Virus record (IMG/VR): IMGVR_UViG_3300027759_000056 | Location: 1 to 64,000 of that record | Source: a virus | DNA length: 64,000 nt | Strand: one strand, 5' to 3' | Shown: piece by piece, positions 6,858 to 62,203 of the stretch | Numbering within the stretch: the stretch's first letter is position 1 | How the letters are laid out: every line of letters starts with the position of its first letter | The notes under the pieces: generated by a model | Told to the model about the DNA's origin: nothing | Seen by the model: the letters and a program-made list of their open reading frames with translations, nothing else | Database searches by the model: none | Program-made: the position numbers and the translations under genes

Positions 6858-7193
6858 ATGGAACCGAATATTATTGATAAAATGGTAAAAGTAGTGAGAG
6901 TTCACTATATGAACCATACGGTTTCAGGAACCTATCAGTTTTGTATTAAAATTGAAGTTGAATTTTTACATCCCATAATGTACGTAAATGGATGGGATAC
7001 ATATCACATTCCAATATATGATAATCTAGGTATGTTAAATGAAACGGTCTATAATGCATTATTTGCGTTACACAAATACTGTGGAGTATCAAAAGAGGAG
7101 TTATTGTTGTGGATGCTATCTAAAATTGATTTTGATAAGGCTTGGGATAAAGATATGTATTTTTGGTTACGTAAAAGTTTTATTAAATACTAG
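6858..7193 (+). CDS. Hypothetical protein (111 aa)
   Basis: Soluble protein, MEPNIIDKMVKVVRVHYMNH at the start and a Trp-rich C-terminus. TATCTTTG ends exactly 4 nt before ATG. The 3' end overlaps the convergent repeat-protein gene by 11 bases. No family recognised. Confidence 0.65.
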   Translation: MEPNIIDKMVKVVRVHYMNHTVSGTYQFCIKIEVEFLHPIMYVNGWDTYHIPIYDNLGMLNETVYNALFALHKYCGVSKEELLLWMLSKIDFDKAWDKDMYFWLRKSFIKY

Positions 7194-8787
7194 TTCCCTC
7201 ACTTATAACTTTACCAACAATATTTGTGGTATTAACCCATTCATCCATTGGTTTTGTTTCTTTAATACCACTCTCAATAACATCATCCACATATTTGGTA
7301 TGTGGTTTGGTTCTATCTTCTTGTCTGTGATAGTAGTTACCCCAATCCATATTACCTTCTTGAGAGGGTAATGGTTGTACTTCTTTAATACCTTTTTCCA
7401 AAACACTTGCGACATCATCTAATCTATGGTTTTCACGATATACAACAGAAAAATCCATTGGGTTGTATAGTGGAGTATGTGAGGGTATACATTGTTTAAC
7501 ACCATTTTTAATTACACCACCAACTCTACCTTTATGGTGATAAACATCATCATGGGTTTCTTTGATTCCATTTTGAATAACATCTTCTACAACACAAGAA
7601 CCATCAATTTGTAATGAGCTGTTTGTCAGTTTTACACCCTGTTTAATTACTTCCTCAACCTCATTATTTTGTTTTGGAGATTCAAGTTGATGAACCATTT
7701 TACCTTTCATTTCTATTGAACCCAAATATCCACCACCTTTAGTTTCTTTAACACCTTCAGAAATAATCCTATCAACTTTAGTTTCATCAAATAAAACACC
7801 ACCTTCAGTGCGTTTTATTCCACGTTCAATCACATCATCAATTAATTGTGGAATGTTAACGGTATTATTATCCGACAGAAAATCAAGGACTCCCAAAATA
7901 TCACCATCTTCACCAGGTGTTTTGGTTTCCTTCACCCCATTTTGAATGATGTCATCAACAGTCTTTGGGTGTCGCTCTGCATCTCGGTGAGTTTCTTTCA
8001 CCCCATTTTGAATGATGTCATCAAATCTTTCATCACCATCTAACCAATCACCATATTCGGTATGCTTAACCCCATTTTGAATGGCATCTTCAACCGAAGA
8101 TGGTCTAACCCCTTTGTGTAATTCAATTTCTTTTACCCCATTTATAATGGCGTCTTCAGCATCGGTATTCATAGAATCCCCGTTTCTTCGGGTCTTTTTC
8201 ACCCCATTTATAATGGTATCTTCAACATATTTGTTTTTATGATGTGTGGTGTCTATGGTGTGTTTCACCCCATTTTGAATTGTGTTTTCAACACTGATAC
8301 ATTGTTGATTTTCGTTACCTCGTGTGTGTTTCACCCCATTTTCAATGGTGTCTTCAGCCCTTTCCTGAGAGAGCAGGTCTTTTGAATCCTCGGTGTGTTT
8401 CACCCCATTTTGAATTATTGTGTCAACTACATCATTAGTATAGTATGGAGCATCTTTGGTTTCTTTAACCCCATTTTGAATGGTGTCTTCAACTTGGTGG
8501 GACTCATCTCGGGTATTTGACCCGGTGTAGTTCACCCCATTTATAATGGTATCTTCAACCCATTTGGTAATGTAGTTTTGATTTTCAACAACATCCAAAG
8601 AAAGAACCTTAAGTAAATTTTTGAAAAAATTGTAATTGTACCATAAAGTACCATCCTTAGTTAATTCAATAACCCATTTTTTTTCATCAGTAAAAATTAA
8701 CCAAGTACTATGATTGTTAACGTATTTATCACAACCCACAATAGCCTTGTCAATCATCTTATTAATTAGTTTACCTAAATCTTTCAT
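7183..8787 (-). CDS. Tandem-repeat protein, about 18 copies of [VA]EDxIxNGVKxT
   Basis: After an 80-residue N-terminal domain (MKDLGKLINKMIDKAIVG...), the protein repeats a 12-14 residue motif such as VEDTIQNGVKET. Copies are separated by 10-30 unrelated polar residues. Central copies are near-identical, C-terminal copies drift (VDDVIESGIKET, VGKVISEGTSI). There is no signal peptide or membrane segment. A TACCTTTG element precedes the ATG at 8,787 by 6 nt; the longer frame uses TTG. The layout suggests a multivalent scaffold, sponge or decoy. I recognise no described family. Confidence 0.75.
   Translation of the reverse strand: MKDLGKLINKMIDKAIVGCDKYVNNHSTWLIFTDEKKWVIELTKDGTLWYNYNFFKNLLKVLSLDVVENQNYITKWVEDTIINGVNYTGSNTRDESHQVEDTIQNGVKETKDAPYYTNDVVDTIIQNGVKHTEDSKDLLSQERAEDTIENGVKHTRGNENQQCISVENTIQNGVKHTIDTTHHKNKYVEDTIINGVKKTRRNGDSMNTDAEDAIINGVKEIELHKGVRPSSVEDAIQNGVKHTEYGDWLDGDERFDDIIQNGVKETHRDAERHPKTVDDIIQNGVKETKTPGEDGDILGVLDFLSDNNTVNIPQLIDDVIERGIKRTEGGVLFDETKVDRIISEGVKETKGGGYLGSIEMKGKMVHQLESPKQNNEVEEVIKQGVKLTNSSLQIDGSCVVEDVIQNGIKETHDDVYHHKGRVGGVIKNGVKQCIPSHTPLYNPMDFSVVYRENHRLDDVASVLEKGIKEVQPLPSQEGNMDWGNYYHRQEDRTKPHTKYVDDVIESGIKETKPMDEWVNTTNIVGKVISEGTSI
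7190..8560. repeat. DNA repeats encoding the NGVK motif
   Basis: On the plus strand a block near TTTCACCCCATTTTGAATGG recurs with about 40-60 nt of unique sequence between copies. Best-conserved copies lie at 7,930-8,550. The periodicity resembles a CRISPR array, but it is in frame within a long gene and spacer lengths vary. Confidence 0.75.
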
Positions 8788-8842
8788 TTGGAACAAAGGT
8801 AATAAAAAATTATGATACTAACAAACTATTTATAGAAACTAC

Positions 8843-34795: not shown

Positions 34796-34797
34796 TG

Positions 34798-34882
34798 CGG
34801 AAGATGAGGGACTTGAACCCACGCATCCTTTTACGGATGTACGGTTTAGCAAACCGCTGCATTACCACTCTGCCAATCTTCC
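34798..34882 (-). tRNA. tRNA-Ser(GCU)
   Basis: GGAAGAT pairs with ATCTTCC, anticodon loop TTGCTAA (GCT), long variable arm ACATCC/GGATG and G73. Length 85 nt. The upstream HNH gene overlaps its 5' half by 37 nt. Confidence 0.95.
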
Positions 34883-35412
34883 GTATTATTTTTTATAATT
34901 TGATATCCATTATATTCTAATATTTTAACACAATTTTCAAATAACTCATTTATAGTTAAATCTCCTTTCATCATATTAATTTCAGACTTTAATATACCCA
35001 TATTTTCTAATGTATTTTTTCCACCTTTATTTACTGGTATTATATGGTCTAAATGATAATCTTTTGGATTTGTAATGTCAATTGGTTGACCTGTTAAATA
35101 ACAAATTGGATTATCACTTATTTTTTCTTTACCTTCTTTTATTGTGAAATTTTTTTCTTGAATATTCATTAATTTAGTTGAACCATCTCTTCTTTGAAAA
35201 TCCCTAAATTTCAAATTAGTATTTCTATTTCTATACCTATCAATTTTTTCAACTAACTTATCTTGTCTTTTTTGTTTTACTCTATCATAAGCCTTTTCTT
35301 TTTGACCTTCACCACAATAGTATGATATTGTTGACATTGAACAATTAAGTTCTTTTTTAATTTCTGAATATGTTTTACCTTCTTCCCTTAATTTCAATAT
35401 ATTTTCTTTCAT
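34846..35412 (-). CDS. HNH endonuclease with N-terminal HTH, overlapping tRNA-Ser (188 aa)
   Basis: MKENILKLREEGKTYSEIKKEL is a helix-turn-helix. Residues ~100-150 form an HNH domain (CYLTGQPIDI...YHLDHIIPVNKGGKNTLENM). No stop occurs before the tRNA, so the last ~12 codons are read through the 5' half of tRNA-Ser. This is typical of a homing-type gene inserted beside a tRNA. An alternative start at 35,430 is possible. Confidence 0.8.
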   Translation of the reverse strand: MKENILKLREEGKTYSEIKKELNCSMSTISYYCGEGQKEKAYDRVKQKRQDKLVEKIDRYRNRNTNLKFRDFQRRDGSTKLMNIQEKNFTIKEGKEKISDNPICYLTGQPIDITNPKDYHLDHIIPVNKGGKNTLENMGILKSEINMMKGDLTINELFENCVKILEYNGYQIIKNNTEDWQSGNAAVC

Positions 35413-35465
35413 ACTTATGTTTCTAATCATAAATATATGATACGAACACTAAATACTTATTAAAT

Positions 35466-35499
35466 AAAAAAATTCTTGGGTTAGTGTCCCAAGAATTTT
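35466..35499 (-). terminator. Terminator after tRNA-Ser(UGA)
   Basis: AAATTCTTGGG pairs with CCCAAGAATTTT; a T-run follows on the minus strand. The HNH gene begins downstream. Confidence 0.8.
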
Positions 35500-35500
35500 G

Positions 35501-35588
35501 TGGAAGTTGAGGGATTCGAACCCCCGAACGACTTTCACCGTTGCTAGTTTTCAAGACTAGTGCGTTCAACCAACTCTGCCAAACTTCC
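35501..35588 (-). tRNA. tRNA-Ser(UGA)
   Basis: GGAAGTT/AACTTCC acceptor, loop CTTGAAA (TGA), long variable arm GCAACGG..., T-arm GGGGGTTCGAATCCC. 88 nt. A second Ser(UGA) gene lies at 53,144. Confidence 0.95.
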
Positions 35589-46816: not shown

Positions 46817-46837
46817 ATTTTATTTTGTATAATTTAG

Positions 46838-46922
46838 TACCGATGGCCGGAGTCGAACCGGCACGGACCTTACAGTCCACAGGATTTTAAGTCCTGCGTG
46901 GCTACCTTTTCACCACATCGGC
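46838..46922 (-). tRNA. tRNA-Leu(UAA)
   Basis: GCCGATG/CATCGGT acceptor (one G-U), loop CTTAAAA (TAA), long variable arm GTGGACTGTAAGGTCCGTG, A73. Confidence 0.95.
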
Positions 46923-48253: not shown

Positions 48254-48327
48254 GCCTTCGTAGCTCAGCTGGATAGAGCAACTGCCTTCTAAGCAGTAGG
48301 TCACAGGTTCGAATCCTGTCGGGGGTA
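48254..48327 (+). tRNA. tRNA-Arg(UCU)
   Basis: GCCTTCG/CGGGGGT acceptor with wobble pairs, loop CTTCTAA (TCT), T-arm CAGGTTCGAATCCTG, A73. An antisense frame here is a known false gene pattern. Confidence 0.95.
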
Positions 48328-48331
48328 CAAA

Positions 48332-51973: not shown

Positions 51974-52210
51974 ATGATTACAATGGAAGACTTAAAAGAT
52001 TTTGACTTCACAAATGATAGTAAGGTTGAATTTATGACCAAACCAGGTTTTGTAGAAAAACGTATTCAACAAATGATTCAAATTGGTGCGAATGAAGAGT
52101 ATGAAAAATACAGTGAAGGAATGAGTGATGATGACATTGCAAAATGGAAAGAAGGGTTTGTAGTCGGAGCAAACTGGTTATTAAAAAATAAAAACGAAAA
52201 AAATATTTGA
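51974..52210 (+). CDS. Hypothetical protein (78 aa)
   Basis: Start MITMEDLKDFDFTNDSKVEF, just after the previous stop. A helical acidic protein with a C-terminal MSDDDIAKWKEGFVVGANWLLKN. Its stop overlaps the -33 part of the tRNA-array promoter. Confidence 0.65.
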   Translation: MITMEDLKDFDFTNDSKVEFMTKPGFVEKRIQQMIQIGANEEYEKYSEGMSDDDIAKWKEGFVVGANWLLKNKNEKNI

Positions 52211-52236
52211 CATATCAATAAACTTTTGTATCTTTG
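52207..52236 (+). promoter_or_regulatory. Promoter of tRNA array 1
   Basis: TTGACA (52,207-52,212) and TATCTTTG (52,229-52,236), 22 nt apart start to start. The same spacing occurs at 59,420/59,442. Unlike the leaderless genes, the next ATG is 24 nt after the -7 element. Confidence 0.7.
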
Positions 52237-52259
52237 TACCATATTTAATACTAAACACA

Positions 52260-52355
52260 ATGAAACTCGTAAATAAACAAATCGTGAAACATGTCATTCA
52301 ATTCTGTTCGAATTGGTATCTTCGCGTATTCGTAAGTTCGGGTGTTTTAAGTTAA
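52260..52355 (+). CDS. Leader peptide of tRNA array 1 (31 aa)
   Basis: Begins MKLVNKQIVKHVIQFC and contains adjacent N, W, Y, L, R codons before its last third. The final codons (AGT TCG GGT) form the 5' arm of a predicted antiterminator. Completing translation would cover this arm and let the terminator form. Stalling further upstream would expose it. Confidence 0.6.
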   Translation: MKLVNKQIVKHVIQFCSNWYLRVFVSSGVLS

Positions 52356-52407
52356 CACATAGTAGCCTTAAAAAGGAAACCCGAACTCACAAGGTTCGGG
52401 TTTTTTT
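52335..52407 (+). promoter_or_regulatory. Transcription attenuator of tRNA array 1
   Basis: AGTTCGGGT (52,335-52,343) can pair with ACCCGAACT (52,379-52,387), 9 bp. The second arm can instead pair with GTTCGGGT (52,394-52,401), giving an 8-bp terminator followed by seven T. The folds are mutually exclusive. Small hairpins lie between arms 1 and 2. Confidence 0.7.
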
Positions 52408-52415
52408 GTTTTTAA

Positions 52416-52426
52416 GTTCTTTGACA
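52416..52426 (+). promoter_or_regulatory. boxA-like antitermination motif, array 1
   Basis: GTTCTTTGACA resembles boxA (GCTCTTTAACA) of rRNA leaders. It lies between the attenuator and the first tRNA. The motif and following TTGGTAA recur before array 2. Confidence 0.55.
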
Positions 52427-52443
52427 TGTTGGTAATCAAAAAT

Positions 52444-52516
52444 GGGACGGTAGCAAAGATGGTCAATGCGCTGGACTGAAAATCCAGTCATGGTGGTTCG
52501 AGTCCACCCCGTCCCA
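52444..52516 (+). tRNA. tRNA-Phe(GAA)
   Basis: GGGACGG/CCGTCCC, loop CTGAAAA, regular T-arm, A73. First gene of array 1. Confidence 0.95.
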
Positions 52517-52524
52517 CAATACAT

Positions 52525-52598
52525 TGGTGATTAGCTCAGTTGGTTAGAGCACTACGCTGATACCGTAGGGGTCACAGGTTCAAATCCTGTATCACCAA
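52525..52598 (+). tRNA. tRNA-Ile(GAU)
   Basis: TGGTGAT/ATCACCA, loop CTGATAC, A73 followed by encoded CCA (52,599-52,601). Confidence 0.95.
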
Positions 52599-52606
52599 CC
52601 ATAAAT

Positions 52607-52677
52607 TACCCTTTCGTCTAACGGCAGGACGAGTGGTTTTGGTCCACTTAGTGGAGGTTCGAATCCTTCAGGGGTAA
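52607..52677 (+). tRNA. tRNA-Gln(UUG)
   Basis: TACCCTT/AGGGGTA, loop TTTTGGT, A73. CCA not encoded. Confidence 0.93.
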
Positions 52678-52683
52678 CAATAT

Positions 52684-52757
52684 GACTTCGTAGCTCAATT
52701 GGCTAGAGCACCGTGCTTTTAACACGGGGGTTTCGGGTTCAAGTCCCGATGGGGTCA
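52684..52757 (+). tRNA. tRNA-Lys(UUU)
   Basis: GACTTCG/TGGGGTC with wobble pairs, loop CTTTTAA, A73. Confidence 0.95.
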
Positions 52758-52763
52758 CAATAT

Positions 52764-52836
52764 CTTTCCTTAGCTCAGTTGGAAGAGCACTTGGCTTACA
52801 TCCAAGATGTCGTTGGTTCAAATCCAACAGGAAAGA
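52764..52836 (+). tRNA. tRNA-Val(UAC)
   Basis: CTTTCCT/AGGAAAG, loop CTTACAT, A73. Confidence 0.95.
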
Positions 52837-52843
52837 CAAAAAT

Positions 52844-52925
52844 GCCAGTATCGCATAGCGGCAATTGCGGCGGATTGTAAACCCGCTCTCATTTGAGTTC
52901 GTAGGTTCGAGTCCTACTGCTGGCA
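52844..52925 (+). tRNA. tRNA-Tyr(GUA)
   Basis: GCCAGTA/TGCTGGC, loop TTGTAAA, long variable arm TCTCATTTGAG as expected for bacterial Tyr, A73. Confidence 0.93.
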
Positions 52926-52930
52926 CAAAA

Positions 52931-52980
52931 CTTATAATCCTCCAAAACTCACTTTTTTTACTAGTTTTGGAGAGTTATAG
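52931..52980. other. Stable hairpin between tRNA-Tyr and tRNA-Cys
   Basis: CTCCAAAACT pairs with AGTTTTGGAG (10 bp), extended by TATAA/TTATA after a 2x2 internal loop; the loop is T-rich. It could be a processing signal. It lacks a T-run after the stem. Confidence 0.5.
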
Positions 52981-52987
52981 AATATAA

Positions 52988-53061
52988 GTCCATATGCCTG
53001 AGAGGTTCAAAGGGACAGTCTGCAAAACTGTTATTCGTTGGTTCGATTCCAACTATGGACT
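52988..53061 (+). tRNA. tRNA-Cys(GCA)
   Basis: GTCCATA/TATGGAC, loop CTGCAAA, U73 as expected for Cys. Confidence 0.93.
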
Positions 53062-53063
53062 CT

Positions 53064-53135
53064 GTGACTGTAGTTCAGTGGTAGAGCATCGGCTTGTGGT
53101 GCCGAGTGTCGTGGGTTCGAATCCCATCAGTCACC
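53064..53135 (+). tRNA. tRNA-His(GUG)
   Basis: GTGACTG/CAGTCAC, loop TTGTGGT, C73. The -1 base is T, not the usual G. Confidence 0.93.
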
Positions 53136-53143
53136 CCAAATAC

Positions 53144-53226
53144 GGAAGTGGTCCGAATGGACGAGGACACCGCCTTGAAAGCGGCTGGCTGTAAAAGGCT
53201 TGGGGGTTCGATTCCCTTCTCTTCCG
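53144..53226 (+). tRNA. tRNA-Ser(UGA), second copy
   Basis: GGAAGTG/CTCTTCC with one mismatch, loop CTTGAAA, long variable arm, G73. Confidence 0.9.
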
Positions 53227-53234
53227 CAAAAAAT

Positions 53235-53309
53235 GGTTCCTTAGTTTAATTGGATAAAACATCTCGCTACGGACGAGAAGATGTGGGGGTTCGAATCCCT
53301 CAGGAATCA
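53235..53309 (+). tRNA. tRNA-Arg(ACG)
   Basis: GGTTCCT/AGGAATC, loop CTACGGA; A34 is normally converted to inosine. A73. Confidence 0.93.
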
Positions 53310-53316
53310 CAACTAC

Positions 53317-53387
53317 GTAAGTGTGGTGTAATGGTAGCATAAAGGTCTCCAAAACTTTTGGCGAGGGTTCGAGTCCTTCCACTTGCG
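53317..53387 (+). tRNA. tRNA-Trp(CCA)
   Basis: GTAAGTG/CACTTGC, loop CTCCAAA, G73. Confidence 0.93.
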
Positions 53388-53393
53388 CAAAAT

Positions 53394-53475
53394 ACCAAAG
53401 TGGCGTAACGGTAGCCGCATTAGTCTTAGAAACTAATGTCCTAAGGGCGTGTGGGTTCGACTCCCACCTTTGGTA
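53394..53475 (+). tRNA. tRNA-Leu(UAG)
   Basis: ACCAAAG/CTTTGGT, loop CTTAGAA, long variable arm, A73. Confidence 0.93.
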
Positions 53476-53486
53476 CAAAAATAAAT

Positions 53487-53568
53487 TGGCAGGTAGCCTA
53501 GAGGTCAGGCAGCAGACTGTTAATCTGCGACGGAAACGTCTACGTGGGTTCGATTCCCACCCTGTCAG
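53487..53568 (+). tRNA. tRNA-Asn(GUU) with long variable arm
   Basis: TGGCAGG/CCTGTCA, loop CTGTTAA, G73. The variable region is 15 nt and forms GACG-GAAA-CGTC. A long arm is expected for Leu, Ser and Tyr but not for Asn. The D-arm is class I type (GCCT/AGGC). Confidence 0.88.
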
Positions 53569-53613
53569 CAAAATATTTTTTGTAAAGTCAAATATCTGTT
53601 GTATATTTGTTGT

Positions 53614-54197: not shown

Positions 54198-54329
54198 AAT
54201 TAGATGGGCGTAATGAGGGATGGTACCCGAGTCCCCAAGATTGGAGGTCACCAGTAATAGGTGGCCGTTGCGTCGTAAGGTTGTCTAATCCGTCCTGAAC
54301 GGTATTCGGTTCGAGTCCGACTCTAATTA
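54198..54329 (+). ncRNA. Expanded tRNA-like RNA 1 (132 nt)
   Basis: AATTAGA pairs perfectly with TCTAATT, the T-arm CGGTTCGAGTCCG is normal, and CCGT/ACGG forms a long variable arm. Instead of an anticodon loop, GATTGG/CTAATC encloses about 40 nt with a 7-bp hairpin (GGTCACC/GGTGGCC). No U33 or anticodon is evident. Either an intron-bearing tRNA or a tRNA mimic. Confidence 0.55.
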
Positions 54330-54330
54330 T

Positions 54331-54407: not shown

Positions 54408-54565
54408 AGTCAGGTGGCGGAATTGGTAGACGATAATGGAGTTATACTATCAAACACAGAGGGTGCGGCGTAGATGGGAACTACTACATTATCTCTTGGA
54501 CGCAAGAGAGCAATATAACCCTAACCATTTGGTATAACGTGTAGGTTCGAATCCTACCCTGACTA
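54408..54565 (+). ncRNA. Expanded tRNA-Leu-like RNA 2 (158 nt)
   Basis: The 5' part (AGTCAGGTGGCGGAATTGG) is a textbook tRNA-Leu start. The 3' part has T-arm GTAGGTTCGAATCCTAC and acceptor CCTGACT, A73. The anticodon stem AATGG/CCATT encloses about 85 nt with GTTATA/TATAAC and TCTCTTG/CAAGAGA hairpins. The insertion is too short for a normal group I intron. No U33 at the stem border. Confidence 0.6.
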
Positions 54566-54660
54566 CAAAAACATAAACTCAAGTACCCACACAGTGGTGA
54601 GACGGGCTAAGTAAGATACAATTCCTCGGAACTGGGAGTAGAGAGCTTGAGAGTGTTTTT
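54566..54660 (+). ncRNA. Structured 3' end of tRNA array 1
   Basis: CTCAAG (54,578-54,583) pairs with CTTGAG (54,646-54,651) around inner hairpins (CCAC/GTGG, TTCC/GGAA), followed by six T. It may combine an RNA element with the array terminator. Confidence 0.4.
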
Positions 54661-59419: not shown

Positions 59420-59449
59420 TTGACACTTTTCAAAAGTTTGATATATTTA
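59420..59449 (+). promoter_or_regulatory. Promoter P1 of tRNA array 2
   Basis: TTGACA (59,420) and TATATTTA (59,442), the same 22-nt spacing as array 1, with A replacing the final G of the -7 consensus. Confidence 0.5.
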
Positions 59450-59476: not shown

Positions 59477-59545
59477 ATGATTACCATCAACATATTCGGC
59501 ACACCAGCAACAGAGGCTGATACTTCCAAAGTGGAGATGGGATAA
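59477..59545 (+). CDS. Leader peptide of tRNA array 2 (22 aa)
   Basis: MITINIFGTPATEADTSKVE and two more residues, then TAA. The last codons (GAG ATG GGA) form arm 1 of the attenuator. The peptide is unrelated in sequence to leader 1, but its position relative to the hairpins is the same. Confidence 0.5.
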   Translation: MITINIFGTPATEADTSKVEMG

Positions 59546-59598
59546 TATTGTAAAAAAATATCTTACAAAAACCCATCTCAAAAGGATGGGTTTTTTTT
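59534..59598 (+). promoter_or_regulatory. Transcription attenuator of tRNA array 2
   Basis: GAGATGGG (59,534-59,541) can pair with CCCATCTC (59,572-59,579), 8 bp, with an inner TTGTAA/TTACAA hairpin. The alternative ACCCATC/GATGGGT (59,571-59,577 / 59,585-59,591) is a terminator followed by eight T. Confidence 0.65.
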
Positions 59599-59606
59599 GT
59601 GTTTGT

Positions 59607-59637
59607 TTGGCAGTATCAAAAAAATGTATTAACTTTG
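59607..59637 (+). promoter_or_regulatory. Promoter P2 of tRNA array 2, beyond the attenuator
   Basis: TTGGCA (59,607) and TAACTTTG (59,630), spacing 23 nt. It lies after the terminator, so it bypasses attenuation. Confidence 0.6.
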
Positions 59638-59667: not shown

Positions 59668-59678
59668 GTTCTTTGACG
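59668..59678 (+). promoter_or_regulatory. boxA-like antitermination motif, array 2
   Basis: GTTCTTTGACG followed by TATTGGTAAG matches the array 1 motif in sequence and position, 18 nt before the first tRNA. Confidence 0.55.
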
Positions 59679-59696
59679 TATTGGTAAGAAAAAATT

Positions 59697-59768
59697 GCTC
59701 GGTTCATCTATCGGTTAGGATGCTAGGTTTTCATCCTAGAAAGAGGGGTTCGACTCCCCTACCGAGTA
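59697..59768 (+). tRNA. tRNA-Glu(UUC)
   Basis: GCTCGGT/ACCGAGT, loop TTTTCAT, A73. Confidence 0.95.
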
Positions 59769-59777
59769 CAAATAAAT

Positions 59778-59849
59778 AGCGGGGTGGAGCAGAGGTAGCT
59801 TGCGAGGCTCATAACCTTGAGGTCACAGGTTCGAATCCTGTCCCCGCTA
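59778..59849 (+). tRNA. tRNA-Met(CAU), initiator-like D-arm
   Basis: AGCGGGG/CCCCGCT, loop CTCATAA, D-arm TGGAGCAGAGGTAGCT as in initiator tRNA, encoded CCA. The anticodon stem CGAGG/CCTTG lacks the full GGG/CCC run. Confidence 0.9.
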
Positions 59850-59860
59850 CCAAAATAAAT

Positions 59861-59931
59861 CGCGAGTTGGTGTAATGGTAACATAATGGGCTCATAACCC
59901 ATAGTTCCGAGTTCGAGTCTCGGGTTCGCAA
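59861..59931 (+). tRNA. tRNA-Met(CAU) with C1-A72 mismatch and GGG/CCC stem
   Basis: CGCGAGT with GTTCGCA leaves C1-A72 unpaired, and the anticodon stem ATGGG/CCCAT has three G-C pairs. These are two hallmarks of initiator tRNA. CCA is encoded (59,932-59,934). Confidence 0.88.
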
Positions 59932-59935
59932 CCAA

Positions 59936-60150
59936 TGGATGTAACTTGGGTCGTGCCACATTGGCCACTTTTACATCAAGAGTCAGAAGGATTAGAGGTG
60001 GCCGTGACTACTCTGACTCGAATACAAAGTACCACGATGCTTACCGTAAGAACAGCACAGTGGTAGATAGAGTTAACGTGAATAACCCAAGGCATAAGCG
60101 TTAACAACCCCCAATAAGACTATTTGGCCAATAGAAACTGTTGGGGTTAT
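59936..60150 (+). ncRNA. Structured RNA A, at least six hairpins
   Basis: Successive stems: GATGTAA/TTACATC, GTGCCA/TGGCCAC, GAGTCAGA/TCTGACTC, ACCAC/GTGGT, GTTAACG/CGTTAAC, CCCCAA/TTGGGG enclosing CTATT/AATAG. There is no reading frame and no T-arm. It lies between two tRNA genes and must be co-transcribed with them. I cannot assign it to a known RNA family. Confidence 0.5.
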
Positions 60151-60155
60151 TAAAA

Positions 60156-60227
60156 GCGAGTGTAGTATAAAGGCTATTACTCCAGCCTTCCAAGCTGGAT
60201 ATGCGAGTTCGATTCTCGCCACTCGCT
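60156..60227 (+). tRNA. tRNA-Gly(UCC)
   Basis: GCGAGTG/CACTCGC, loop CTTCCAA, U73 as expected for Gly. Confidence 0.95.
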
Positions 60228-60228
60228 C

Positions 60229-60434
60229 AAAAAGAACCTTTTCTTACGGAAGTCCGATTAGCGCGGATGAAAGGAACCTTGACTTCACGGGAGTAGCTAC
60301 CCAATTGAAGCTTGAATGACTCAAGGTACTCTGTAATGGACCCTGCTCTATGGTGCACACATAACAGGTGATGGGGAACAAACCATCGGTAAAATCTAAA
60401 CCCACGGTGAGCGTGGAAGGAAAGTTTCTTTTTT
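60229..60434 (+). ncRNA. Structured RNA B with closing stem
   Basis: AAGAACCTTTTC (60,232-60,243) pairs with GGAAAGTTTCTT (60,419-60,430), 11 of 12. Inside are ACCTTGA/TCAAGGT enclosing CTTCA/TGAAG, GATGG/CCATC and CCACG/CGTGG. It ends in eight T just before the next tRNA. A ten-base segment GGGAGTAGCT is shared with the following tRNA-Gly. Family unknown. Confidence 0.5.
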
Positions 60435-60436
60435 TT

Positions 60437-60508
60437 GCGGGAGTAGCTCAGGGGTAGAGCTTCAGTTTACCAAACTGAAAGTCGAAGGTTCGAATCCTTT
60501 TTCCCGCT
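60437..60508 (+). tRNA. tRNA-Gly(ACC), unusual anticodon
   Basis: GCGGGAG/TTCCCGC, stem TCAGT/ACTGA, loop TTACCAA giving ACC, U73 and encoded CCA. Gly anticodons with A34 are rare in bacteria. Confidence 0.85.
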
Positions 60509-60528
60509 CCAAATGTAAATCTTAAAAA

Positions 60529-60563
60529 GGGCCCTTCCGTGTTTATCACGGCTTGTTGGGCCC
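60529..60563. other. Two-tier hairpin with GGGCCC arms
   Basis: GGGCCC (60,529) pairs with GGGCCC (60,558), enclosing CCGTG/CACGG. It lies between tRNA-Gly and tRNA-Asp. No T-run; possibly a processing site. Confidence 0.5.
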
Positions 60564-60579
60564 GGGTTTACTAACTTAC

Positions 60580-60651
60580 GGTCCTGTAGTTAATCGGCTA
60601 TAATATTGCCCTGTCACGGCAAAGTGCCGGGTTCGATTCCCGGTGGGACCG
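60580..60651 (+). tRNA. tRNA-Asp(GUC)
   Basis: GGTCCTG/TGGGACC, loop CTGTCAC, G73. Confidence 0.95.
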
Positions 60652-60662
60652 CAAAAATAAAA

Positions 60663-60732
60663 GGGCCTGATGTCAACGGCAGACCGTTTGATTTGCAATC
60701 AGAACGTATGGGTTCGATTCCCACAGTGTCCA
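60663..60732 (+). tRNA. tRNA-Ala(UGC)
   Basis: GGGCCTG/AGTGTCC with the alanine identity pair G3-U70; two acceptor mismatches. Loop TTTGCAA (TGC), A73. Somewhat degenerate. Confidence 0.8.
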
Positions 60733-60741
60733 CAAACAAAT

Positions 60742-60817
60742 AGCGTAGTAGAGGAGTCAGGTTTATCTCATCTGCTTTGGGAGCAGAGGCACGCTGGTTC
60801 GAATCCAGTCTACGCTA
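60742..60817 (+). tRNA. tRNA-Pro(UGG)
   Basis: AGCGTAG/CTACGCT, loop TTTGGGA, A73. Last gene of array 2. Confidence 0.93.
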
Positions 60818-60850
60818 CTAATTATAAAAAAAATTTACTATCTTTGTAAC

Positions 60851-61138
60851 ATGAAAAACATATTAAAAGACCCCCGATTTTATTTTTTCCTATGGATTGT
60901 TCTATCTATTATTCTTGCCATTACGTTAGGAGCTTGTAAACAGAAACCTTTGATTGAAAAAGGTGATGTAGTTGAAAAGTTCGTTATTGATTCAATGGTT
61001 CAATTGCCACCTCACAGCACAATTGAACTTGACAGGAAGTACAAGTATTTCATGTCAGACAGCAGTGAGTTTACTTCTTTGAAGAAATATAACATTGGTG
61101 ATACAATCACTTATGTTTACAAAAAACAAGGAAAGTAA
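60851..61138 (+). CDS. Lipoprotein (95 aa)
   Basis: A basic N-terminus, a hydrophobic helix and lipobox LGAC (Cys29). The mature part is soluble with strands (GDVVEKFVIDSMVQLPP). TATCTTTG ends 4 nt before ATG. It resembles small lipoproteins that phages use for lysis or exclusion; nothing specific is visible. Confidence 0.7.
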   Translation: MKNILKDPRFYFFLWIVLSIILAITLGACKQKPLIEKGDVVEKFVIDSMVQLPPHSTIELDRKYKYFMSDSSEFTSLKKYNIGDTITYVYKKQGK

Positions 61139-61157
61139 TATATATTAAAACATAAAT

Positions 61158-61231
61158 GCCTGAATAGCTTTAATTGGTAGAGCACCTGACTTGTAATCAG
61201 GGGGTTGGCGGTTCGAGTCCGTCTTCAGGCT
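61158..61231 (+). tRNA. tRNA-Thr(UGU)
   Basis: GCCTGAA/TTCAGGC, loop CTTGTAA, encoded CCA after U73. Confidence 0.95.
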
Positions 61232-61246
61232 CCAAACACAATAATC

Positions 61247-61432
61247 ATGGACCCCAAGACTCAAATGACGCAGGAAGATTTTTTAACTGAATTGACTGAA
61301 TTAAGTCAGTCATTTGGATTGTATGGTGAAAATGACAACTTTGGTGTTGATGGAGTTTACATACATACCCAACCAGAAATGTACATATGTCCGTGGGATA
61401 ATACTCAAGGGGATTGTACTCATTTCAACTAA
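61247..61432 (+). CDS. Small acidic protein (61 aa)
   Basis: Start MDPKTQMTQEDFLTELTEL, 13 nt after the encoded CCA of tRNA-Thr. The longer frame reads through the tRNA and is rejected. The C-terminus (YICPWDNTQGDCTHFN) has two cysteines. Confidence 0.6.
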   Translation: MDPKTQMTQEDFLTELTELSQSFGLYGENDNFGVDGVYIHTQPEMYICPWDNTQGDCTHFN

Positions 61433-61437
61433 TATTT

Positions 61438-61511
61438 GGACGGGTAGCTCAACAGGTTAGAGCAGGATGCTTATATCATCAAGGTTGGGGGTTCAAGTCC
61501 CTTCTCGTCTA
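61438..61511 (+). tRNA. tRNA-Ile(UAU)
   Basis: GGACGGG/CTCGTCT with wobble pairs, loop CTTATAT (TAT), A73. It reads AUA directly, whereas most bacteria use lysidine-modified CAU. Confidence 0.9.
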
Positions 61512-61525
61512 CTAAAAATTTAATT

Positions 61526-62098
61526 ATGAGCAACGAATATAATCAATGGTATTGGAAACTTTATAGATGGTTCAGATGGGACGCTAAACATCTTCATCGT
61601 GATATTGCACAGGGTTTTAGAAACCTATGGAAATGGTTACCAATAATTTGGAAAGACCGTGATTGGGATGACCATTTTATTTTTGAAGTTTTGAAATTCA
61701 AAATCAAGAATACCGCCAAGTATACAGAAAAAAAACAAAGGTTTGTTGGTTGGGAAAAAGAAGTTAGATATATGAGAATATGTGAAACTTTAATTGATAG
61801 AATTCAAAATGAGTATTATCAGATGGAGTATCAAGATTATCATGATTTTGATATTAGTACGGTACCAACAGAAGATGGTTTGTATGAAGTTGTCTTTGAT
61901 GTTAAACGTGATGATACTGATGAATTTGTTAAAAAATACCCACACGCTCTAAGAAAAGCAAAAAAAGACCCAAGATTTAAGAGTTATTTTAAGAATGAAA
62001 GAAATGGTTATCTTGCTGTGGGTATGATTAGACACGAAAAAGCAAGAAAACTGTTATTCAAAATTTTGGAACAAAGAATTGAGCGTTGGTGGGATTGA
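61526..62098 (+). CDS. Hypothetical basic protein (190 aa)
   Basis: MSNEYNQWYWKLYRWFRWDA with many Trp and basic residues, and a region KIKNTAKYTEKKQRFVGWEKEVRYMRIC that may be helical. It has a phage-like pattern but I cannot name a family. It lies between tRNA-Ile and tRNA-Met. Confidence 0.65.
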   Translation: MSNEYNQWYWKLYRWFRWDAKHLHRDIAQGFRNLWKWLPIIWKDRDWDDHFIFEVLKFKIKNTAKYTEKKQRFVGWEKEVRYMRICETLIDRIQNEYYQMEYQDYHDFDISTVPTEDGLYEVVFDVKRDDTDEFVKKYPHALRKAKKDPRFKSYFKNERNGYLAVGMIRHEKARKLLFKILEQRIERWWD

Positions 62099-62108
62099 TT
62101 TTTTTCAC

Positions 62109-62116
62109 TATATTTG
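62109..62116 (+). promoter_or_regulatory. TATATTTG promoter of tRNA-Met
   Basis: Fits TAnnTTTG, 10 nt before the tRNA. Confidence 0.5.
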
Positions 62117-62126
62117 TATAACAAAT

Positions 62127-62200
62127 GGACCTTTAGCTCAGTTGGTCAGAGCGGCTGACTCATAATCAGTAGGTCGTAGGTTCAAGCCCTACAGGGTCCA
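62127..62200 (+). tRNA. tRNA-Met(CAU), elongator type
   Basis: GGACCTT/AGGGTCC, stem GCTGA/TCAGT, loop CTCATAA, A73. The class I D-arm lacks initiator features. Confidence 0.93.
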
Positions 62201-62203
62201 CAA

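Follow-up and report, generated by a model that had tools for sequence, protein, structure and literature searches.

Organization of the tRNA array loci

What is the role of a short open reading frame and a terminator placed directly in front of a phage tRNA array? The function of such arrays is debated, and their expression is usually treated as constitutive. The window analysed here (bases 1–64000 of a 111,976-base IMG/VR virus record, 64,000 nucleotides in all) contains two arrays, and an earlier note made from its letters had described a promoter, a 31-codon leader (52,260–52,355) and a T-run terminator before the first tRNA of array 1, all of which we found in the window. We consider it highly likely that a ribosome-mediated transcription attenuator controls the array, such that a shortage of any encoded tRNA would open the whole of it. 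Going beyond the earlier note, we detected a 20/20 match between leader codons and array, a second leader at array 2, and a boxA element after each attenuator.

All parts of both loci lie on the plus strand, and promoter calls throughout rest on consensus. The P1 promoter of array 1 (52207..52236) was located by consensus scan, with TTGACA at 52207 and TATCTTTG at 52229–52236. Its TTG to TA distance is 19 nt, a Bacteroidota-type form; the known form of promoters in this phylum is TTG-N(17–23)-TAnnTTTG. P1 is kept in the related loci L032, L043, L061, L214 and L226. Leader ORF 1 (52260..52355), recognised from its reading frame and codon statistics, encodes the product MKLVNKQIVKHVIQFCSNWYLRVFVSSGVLS, and its final codons contain arm 1, AGTTCGGGT (52335..52343), the 5' strand of the antiterminator. 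Arm 2, ACCCGAACT (52379..52387), is common to antiterminator and terminator, while arm 3, GGTTCGGGT (52393–52401), together with a run of seven T forms the 3' strand of the terminator (52393..52407). After these three arms, all assigned by pairing, comes a boxA element, GTTCTTTGACATGTTGG (52416..52432), that resembles the boxA of Bacteroidota rRNA operons. ARAGORN and Rfam then place 13 tRNAs at 52444..53569 (Phe, Ile, Gln, Lys, Val, Tyr, Cys, His, Ser, Arg, Trp, Leu and Asn), the first of which, tRNA-Phe, starts at 52444.

Array 2 is preceded by the same series of parts. Its P1 promoter (59420..59449) consists of TTGACA and, at 19-nt spacing, TATATTTA; leader ORF 2 (59477..59545; again from reading frame and codon statistics) encodes MITINIFGTPATEADTSKVEMG and carries arm 1, GAGATGGG (59534..59541), in its last codons. 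Arm 1 forms a duplex of −12.6 kcal/mol with arm 2, CCCATCTC (59572..59579), and terminator 2 is completed by arm 3, GGATGGG, and T8 (59584..59598). A possible second promoter, P2 (TTTG, then TAACTTTG; 59606..59637), lies between terminator 2 and the boxA element GTTCTTTGACGTATTGG (59668..59684), and possibly circumvents attenuator 2. The array itself (59697..62201; ARAGORN and Rfam) reads Glu, Met, Met, Gly, Gly, Asp, Ala, Pro, Thr, Ile(UAU) and Met, its tRNAs being interrupted by other RNAs and small genes. Attenuators 1 and 2 have entirely different arm sequences and identical architecture.

Several other RNAs were observed in and around the arrays. A freshwater-1 RNA (RF02979, 73.8 bits) lies at 60332–60394 inside array 2, between both tRNA-Gly genes, and is the only known family in the G+C-rich, apparently structured inter-tRNA stretches at 59940–60130, 60240–60430 and 54560–54640. 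The tRNA-Ala (UGC) at 60663–60732 was called by Rfam only (29.5 bits) and missed by ARAGORN; it is possibly diverged.

Competing RNA pairings

The 9-nt pairing that had been proposed between the end of leader 1 and arm 2 was borne out, arm 1 being the full complement of arm 2 (duplex −13.7 kcal/mol). Both alternative states also appeared when folding energies were calculated, as the earlier note had suggested doing: RNA extending past arm 2 and ending before arm 3 has the arm 1/arm 2 helix in its minimum-energy fold, and the downstream RNA alone folds as the terminator (−19.0). Competition with the terminator had been proposed as well, and arm 2 is indeed common to both helices, but the terminator stem put at 8 bp is a perfect 10-bp stem, made longer by an A–T extension. 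The minimum-energy fold of the full-length leader is the terminator, the stabler state at equilibrium, and therefore the decision must fall during transcription, as in known attenuators.

To place the locus among others, we used the boxA motif that lies between terminator and first tRNA before both window arrays, GTTCTTTGAC(A/G)T(G/A)TTGG. Loci were collected from IMG/VR by this motif, blind to leaders, so that selection was for boxA and in part for GGGTTTTT preceding it. Among the matches listed, 158 distinct boxA sites lay just 5' of tRNAs; an intrinsic terminator was present at 127 of them, and 125 of these 127 had an ATG ORF ending at most 75 nt before the terminator. The design was found in this way, among the matches listed, at 125 tRNA arrays from many phages. 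The same putative device, used by many viruses of Bacteroidota, stands before array 2 and more than 100 other phage arrays. The collected loci were redundant, and statistics were calculated on 54–55 non-redundant leaders. Leaders were taken by a longest-ORF rule, by which L181, at least, was read in a wrong frame and retained so in the statistics; where an array ran on past a second leader (L283), it was split ahead of the final statistics.

In 55 non-redundant loci, the leader end paired with its own arm 2 at a mean of −14.0 kcal/mol, compared with −9.1 kcal/mol for foreign (shuffled) arm 2 sequences (z = −15) and −5.1 kcal/mol for an upstream control window. Because own and foreign partners were treated alike, the choice of the best helix gives this test no bias. 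Arm sequences differ between phages while pairing with the own partner holds, although pairing of arm 1 is weak in some families (L273, L147 and L163). Conservation of the competing pairing in related phages, named beforehand as a check, was therefore found in related and unrelated phages alike, and an attenuator of the proposed polarity, in which full translation would favour termination and stalling would favour read-through, appears to be the best explanation.

The distance from the stop codon to arm 2 is 20–34 nt in 48 of 54 loci, a spacing at which a ribosome that has reached the stop codon would cover arm 1 but not arm 2. Ribosome-mediated attenuators have a terminator and an antiterminator that share a strand, an antiterminator 5' strand that is covered by the finishing ribosome, and regulatory codons that match the product of the operon. 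The phage loci have a shared strand in arm 2, an arm 1 whose position and spacing correspond to the covered strand, and leader codons that match the operon product, which here is tRNAs.

Leader codons match the tRNAs of the array

We defined the sensor as the leader codons at which a stalled ribosome would leave arm 1 free. In leader 1 these are codons 2–21 (K L V N K Q I V K H V I Q F C S N W Y L), with the Arg codon CGC directly 3' of them. At the anticodon level, array-1 tRNAs read 20/20 sensor codons and array-2 tRNAs read none. Twelve of the 13 array-1 tRNA species are represented in the sensor and all 13 in the whole leader. The 20/20 match has P = 1e-6, because array 1 reads half of the window's codons, and species coverage has P = 2e-5; the two values together were not reached in 2 million random draws. 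Stalling had previously been assigned to the N-W-Y-L-R codons. These codons are part of the match, but they are not its limit, as codons of all array tRNAs are used. All eight non-Met species of array 2 have a codon in the leader 2 sensor (8/8), including ATA for Ile-UAU, with P = 1.4e-3 for both match and coverage, and the codon set of leader 2 is complementary to that of leader 1. Sequence statistics establish the codon match as well as the parts and their competing pairings.

The match extends across viral loci. The 54 non-redundant leaders had codons for a fraction of 0.95 of the tRNA species in their own array, compared with 0.70 (sd 0.03) for swapped arrays, which reached a maximum of 0.81 in 20,000 permutations; for the sensor only, the values were 0.89 and 0.56. 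All array tRNAs were represented in 40/54 leaders, and the coverage result was unchanged under an earlier clustering of the loci. Examples include a Ser-Asp-Val-Glu-Thr-Lys-Met-Ala-Gly-Leu array with the leader MKTTMTYRLEVVKTKMEGADSLLPNLRVYHNS, an Asp-Glu-Val-Leu-Ala array with the leader MKKLLDILLVLAEVLLWDDEEAMRIVGNVT, and a Ser-Ser array whose leader begins MKTLPNINWSSSRWSSRKN. At least one array tRNA was unrepresented in the other 14/54 leaders (e.g., L117 and the second leader of L247, which represents 5/10), and L061 has a short array yet retains a full leader. Match at the level of isoacceptors in split codon boxes was modest, a trend only. Leader families (pooled pN/pS 0.49) evolve, by this measure, under constraint at the protein level, which, like the in-frame codon signal, suggests that the leaders may be translated.

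A leader could instead sense stalled or absent translation generally, as in host shut-off, ribosome inhibition or low initiation, its codon content being incidental. Folding is compatible with this, since without a ribosome arm 1 would be free to pair with arm 2, and read-through would be expected from a wholly untranslated leader under our model too. However, codon content tracks the array in the 54 non-redundant leaders, does so in frame only, and distinguishes between the two arrays of one genome. Leader DNA read in frames +1 and +2 gave coverages of 0.60 and 0.62 (p about 1e-8 to 1e-9), and in-frame pieces of real genes, of the same length and from the same contigs, gave 0.64 (p = 5e-10). 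On nine contigs with two leaders, coverage was 0.95 for the own array and 0.31 for the neighbour's, and sensor coverage was 0.85 and 0.14. We therefore regard general sensing of translation as quite unlikely.

It is still less likely that the ORF arose by chance, or is simply a small gene, and has its own terminator, the array being transcribed separately or by read-through from upstream. Such transcription is suggested by a promoter-like TAnnTTTG element 3' of the terminator at some loci (about 19%, including window array 2; 6.5% in shuffles), and isolated tRNAs of the window genome have a simple promoter only, for example the leaderless tRNA-Leu(UAA) at 46837. Array 1, however, has no TAnnTTTG between its terminator and tRNA-Phe, and both the arm 1/arm 2 pairing (z = −15) and the codon match would be left unexplained. 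Direct binding of tRNA, by a T-box-like element or another RNA sensor, is the least probable reading and hardly credible: the element does precede tRNA-related genes and has a terminator and an antiterminator, but no Rfam family reaches gathering score over either leader, and arm 1 lies inside an ORF whose codon signal is in frame 0 only. T-box identity was rejected, as neither gathering score nor E ≤ 5 brought up a family match, and identity with the Rfam families Thr_leader and Phe_leader was rejected at 27.8 and 30.3 bits against a curated score of 55.

A gained tRNA gene and a gained codon

Comparison with relatives offers one view of how leader and array may change together. The relatives L032, L043, L069 and L226 have the array order of the window without tRNA-Ser(UGA) (53143..53227), which lies in a window-only 97-bp insertion between His and Arg. 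Only in the window is the seventeenth codon of leader 1 (codon 17) TCG, a Ser codon that UGA reads; the relatives have CAG (L032, L043, L061, L069 and L226) or AAT (L214). The apparent gain of a tRNA-Ser gene thus coincides with the gain of a Ser codon, a single event in the predicted direction. The contig holding L043 and L144 is 294,914 bp long with both leaders present, so the window probably comes from a similar jumbo phage. No relatives were found through the neighbouring 418-aa protein.

Proposed mechanism

Based on these features, we infer translation of the leader, stalling, switching, a function for boxA and a biological trigger, as follows. RNA polymerase would start at P1, and a ribosome would translate the leader behind it. 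With no delay at any codon, the ribosome would arrive at the stop codon and cover arm 1, arm 2 would pair with arm 3, and transcription would terminate before the tRNAs. When a tRNA for a sensor codon is scarce or uncharged, the ribosome would stall upstream and leave arm 1 free to pair with arm 2, and polymerase would read through into the array; renewed tRNA supply would close it again. Since the sensor holds a codon for each array tRNA, it would act as an OR gate, and the locus would be an attenuator that reads many inputs within one leader. With a single codon per tRNA, a response to strong depletion and not to mild starvation is expected; the sensitivity of classical leaders, which have many copies of one codon, has been analysed (PMC1183508).

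The trigger may be loss of host tRNAs through host decay or defence nucleases. Phages meet strong tRNA depletion when host defences cut tRNAs (PMC10264068, PMC11555353), and the attenuator may be linked to such defence. On balance we lean towards a broader reading, in which the leaders form a widespread modular class of regulators that list the tRNAs of their own array as test codons, evolve with gene gain in the array, and respond as an alarm with many inputs when host defences destroy tRNAs, providing replacement tRNAs on demand. A leader that tests its own array's tRNAs would tell what the phage must monitor and predicts induction by the loss of any single tRNA, so codon-matched leaders make the tRNA-depletion or anti-defence hypothesis directly testable. 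The rule that leader codons predict array content could also be used in phage genome annotation and in tRNA-supply reporters.

The boxA copy 3' of both window attenuators is part of the design. The sequence GTTCTTTGACATATTGG, found between tRNA-Ile/tRNA-Ala and 23S in Bacteroidota genomes (L355, L357 and L359), is identical to the phage 17-mer. The phage boxA is thus like that of the host rRNA operon, and phages appear to have copied the host signal for rRNA antitermination. Though the same boxA is used in rRNA operon antitermination (boxA, NusB–S10), the phage copy lies 3' of an intrinsic terminator and serves a tRNA array. It probably loads the host NusB–S10 antitermination factors, which would carry polymerase through the long untranslated array.

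Similar boxA elements were seen in two other phages, which we rejected as family members given that no leader and tRNA array arrangement was seen. In Prevotella phage Lak-A2 (MK250019), a boxA-like GTTCTTTGACATATTGATAA follows directly after a TATCTTTG promoter, and a second copy, GTTCTTTGAAATTTTGATA, lies about 110 bases on, 3' of tRNA genes. Cellulophaga phage phi13:2 has a boxA-like AAGTTCATTGACATATTGGTAA (about 2501–2522) before an apparently structured stretch free of tRNAs, and the 5-kb locus contains no tRNA genes.

Distribution and relation to known systems

The terminator-plus-boxA pattern occurred in more than 120 stretches of the viral collection and gave 61 matches in 257 Gb of bacterial and archaeal genomes. 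None of these 61 had a leader before a tRNA array, and the one with downstream tRNAs was an rRNA-operon spacer. Cellulophaga phage phi38:1 (NC_021796) is a possible cultured example of the design, with the candidate leader MKTIMNIATDIRTKGVKLLGRSRVL (35283–35360), a terminator at 35386–35413, an array that starts at 35522, and a leader/terminator duplex of −19.6 kcal/mol. Its first eight non-Met tRNA types are all in the leader (gene-piece chance 0.06), counting one tRNA-Ala recognised by eye only and uncalled by ARAGORN and Rfam; later tRNAs of the array are not covered. The design is not universal, as the first tRNA of Bacteroides crAss001 is preceded by a simple promoter alone, with no leader. 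Five leader peptides had no real match in an annotated phage collection.

Like the trp, his, thr and leu attenuators of enterobacteria, the phage device has a short leader, there translated, with codons matching the product, and mutually exclusive terminator and antiterminator structures in which stalling leads, here by prediction, to read-through. Unlike the phage device, which serves a tRNA set, those attenuators serve biosynthetic enzymes; they use runs of one codon, whereas phage leaders combine codons for different tRNAs, up to 13 or more of them, and they have four RNA arms, compared with three arms and then boxA in phages. T-box riboswitches likewise regulate tRNA-related genes through attenuation according to tRNA charging, which they sense by binding tRNA directly, whereas the phage leader appears to sense by translation. 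Similar, too, are the phage tRNAs that counteract host defences aimed at tRNAs (PMC10264068, PMC11555353), in that arrays replace depleted host tRNAs; in one case phage tRNAs were expressed from a strong promoter (PMC11555353), and the terms "leader" and "attenuat-" are absent from the texts of both papers. The earlier note knew of no described phage tRNA operon with such control, and full-text searches of the open literature likewise gave us no account of a phage tRNA array controlled by a leader-peptide attenuator. Mechanisms of this general type are known, but the control of tRNA arrays, the sensing of many codons by one leader, the combination with boxA and the occurrence in viruses all seem to be novel.

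Other features of the window

Isolated tRNAs occur outside the arrays (Leu-UAA, Arg-UCU, Ser-GCU and Ser-UGA; 46837–46922, 48254–48328 and 34797–35588), and the leader 1 sensor contains no TTR, AGR or AGY codons. ARAGORN made no call for two tRNA-like genes (54200–54330 and 54410–54570) in which inserted or variable parts are long; in the relatives L032 and L043, a gene similar to them was called as tRNA-??? with a two-base anticodon. A 537-aa ORF on the minus strand (7183–8796) consists mostly of repeats of a VEDTIQNGVKET-like unit.
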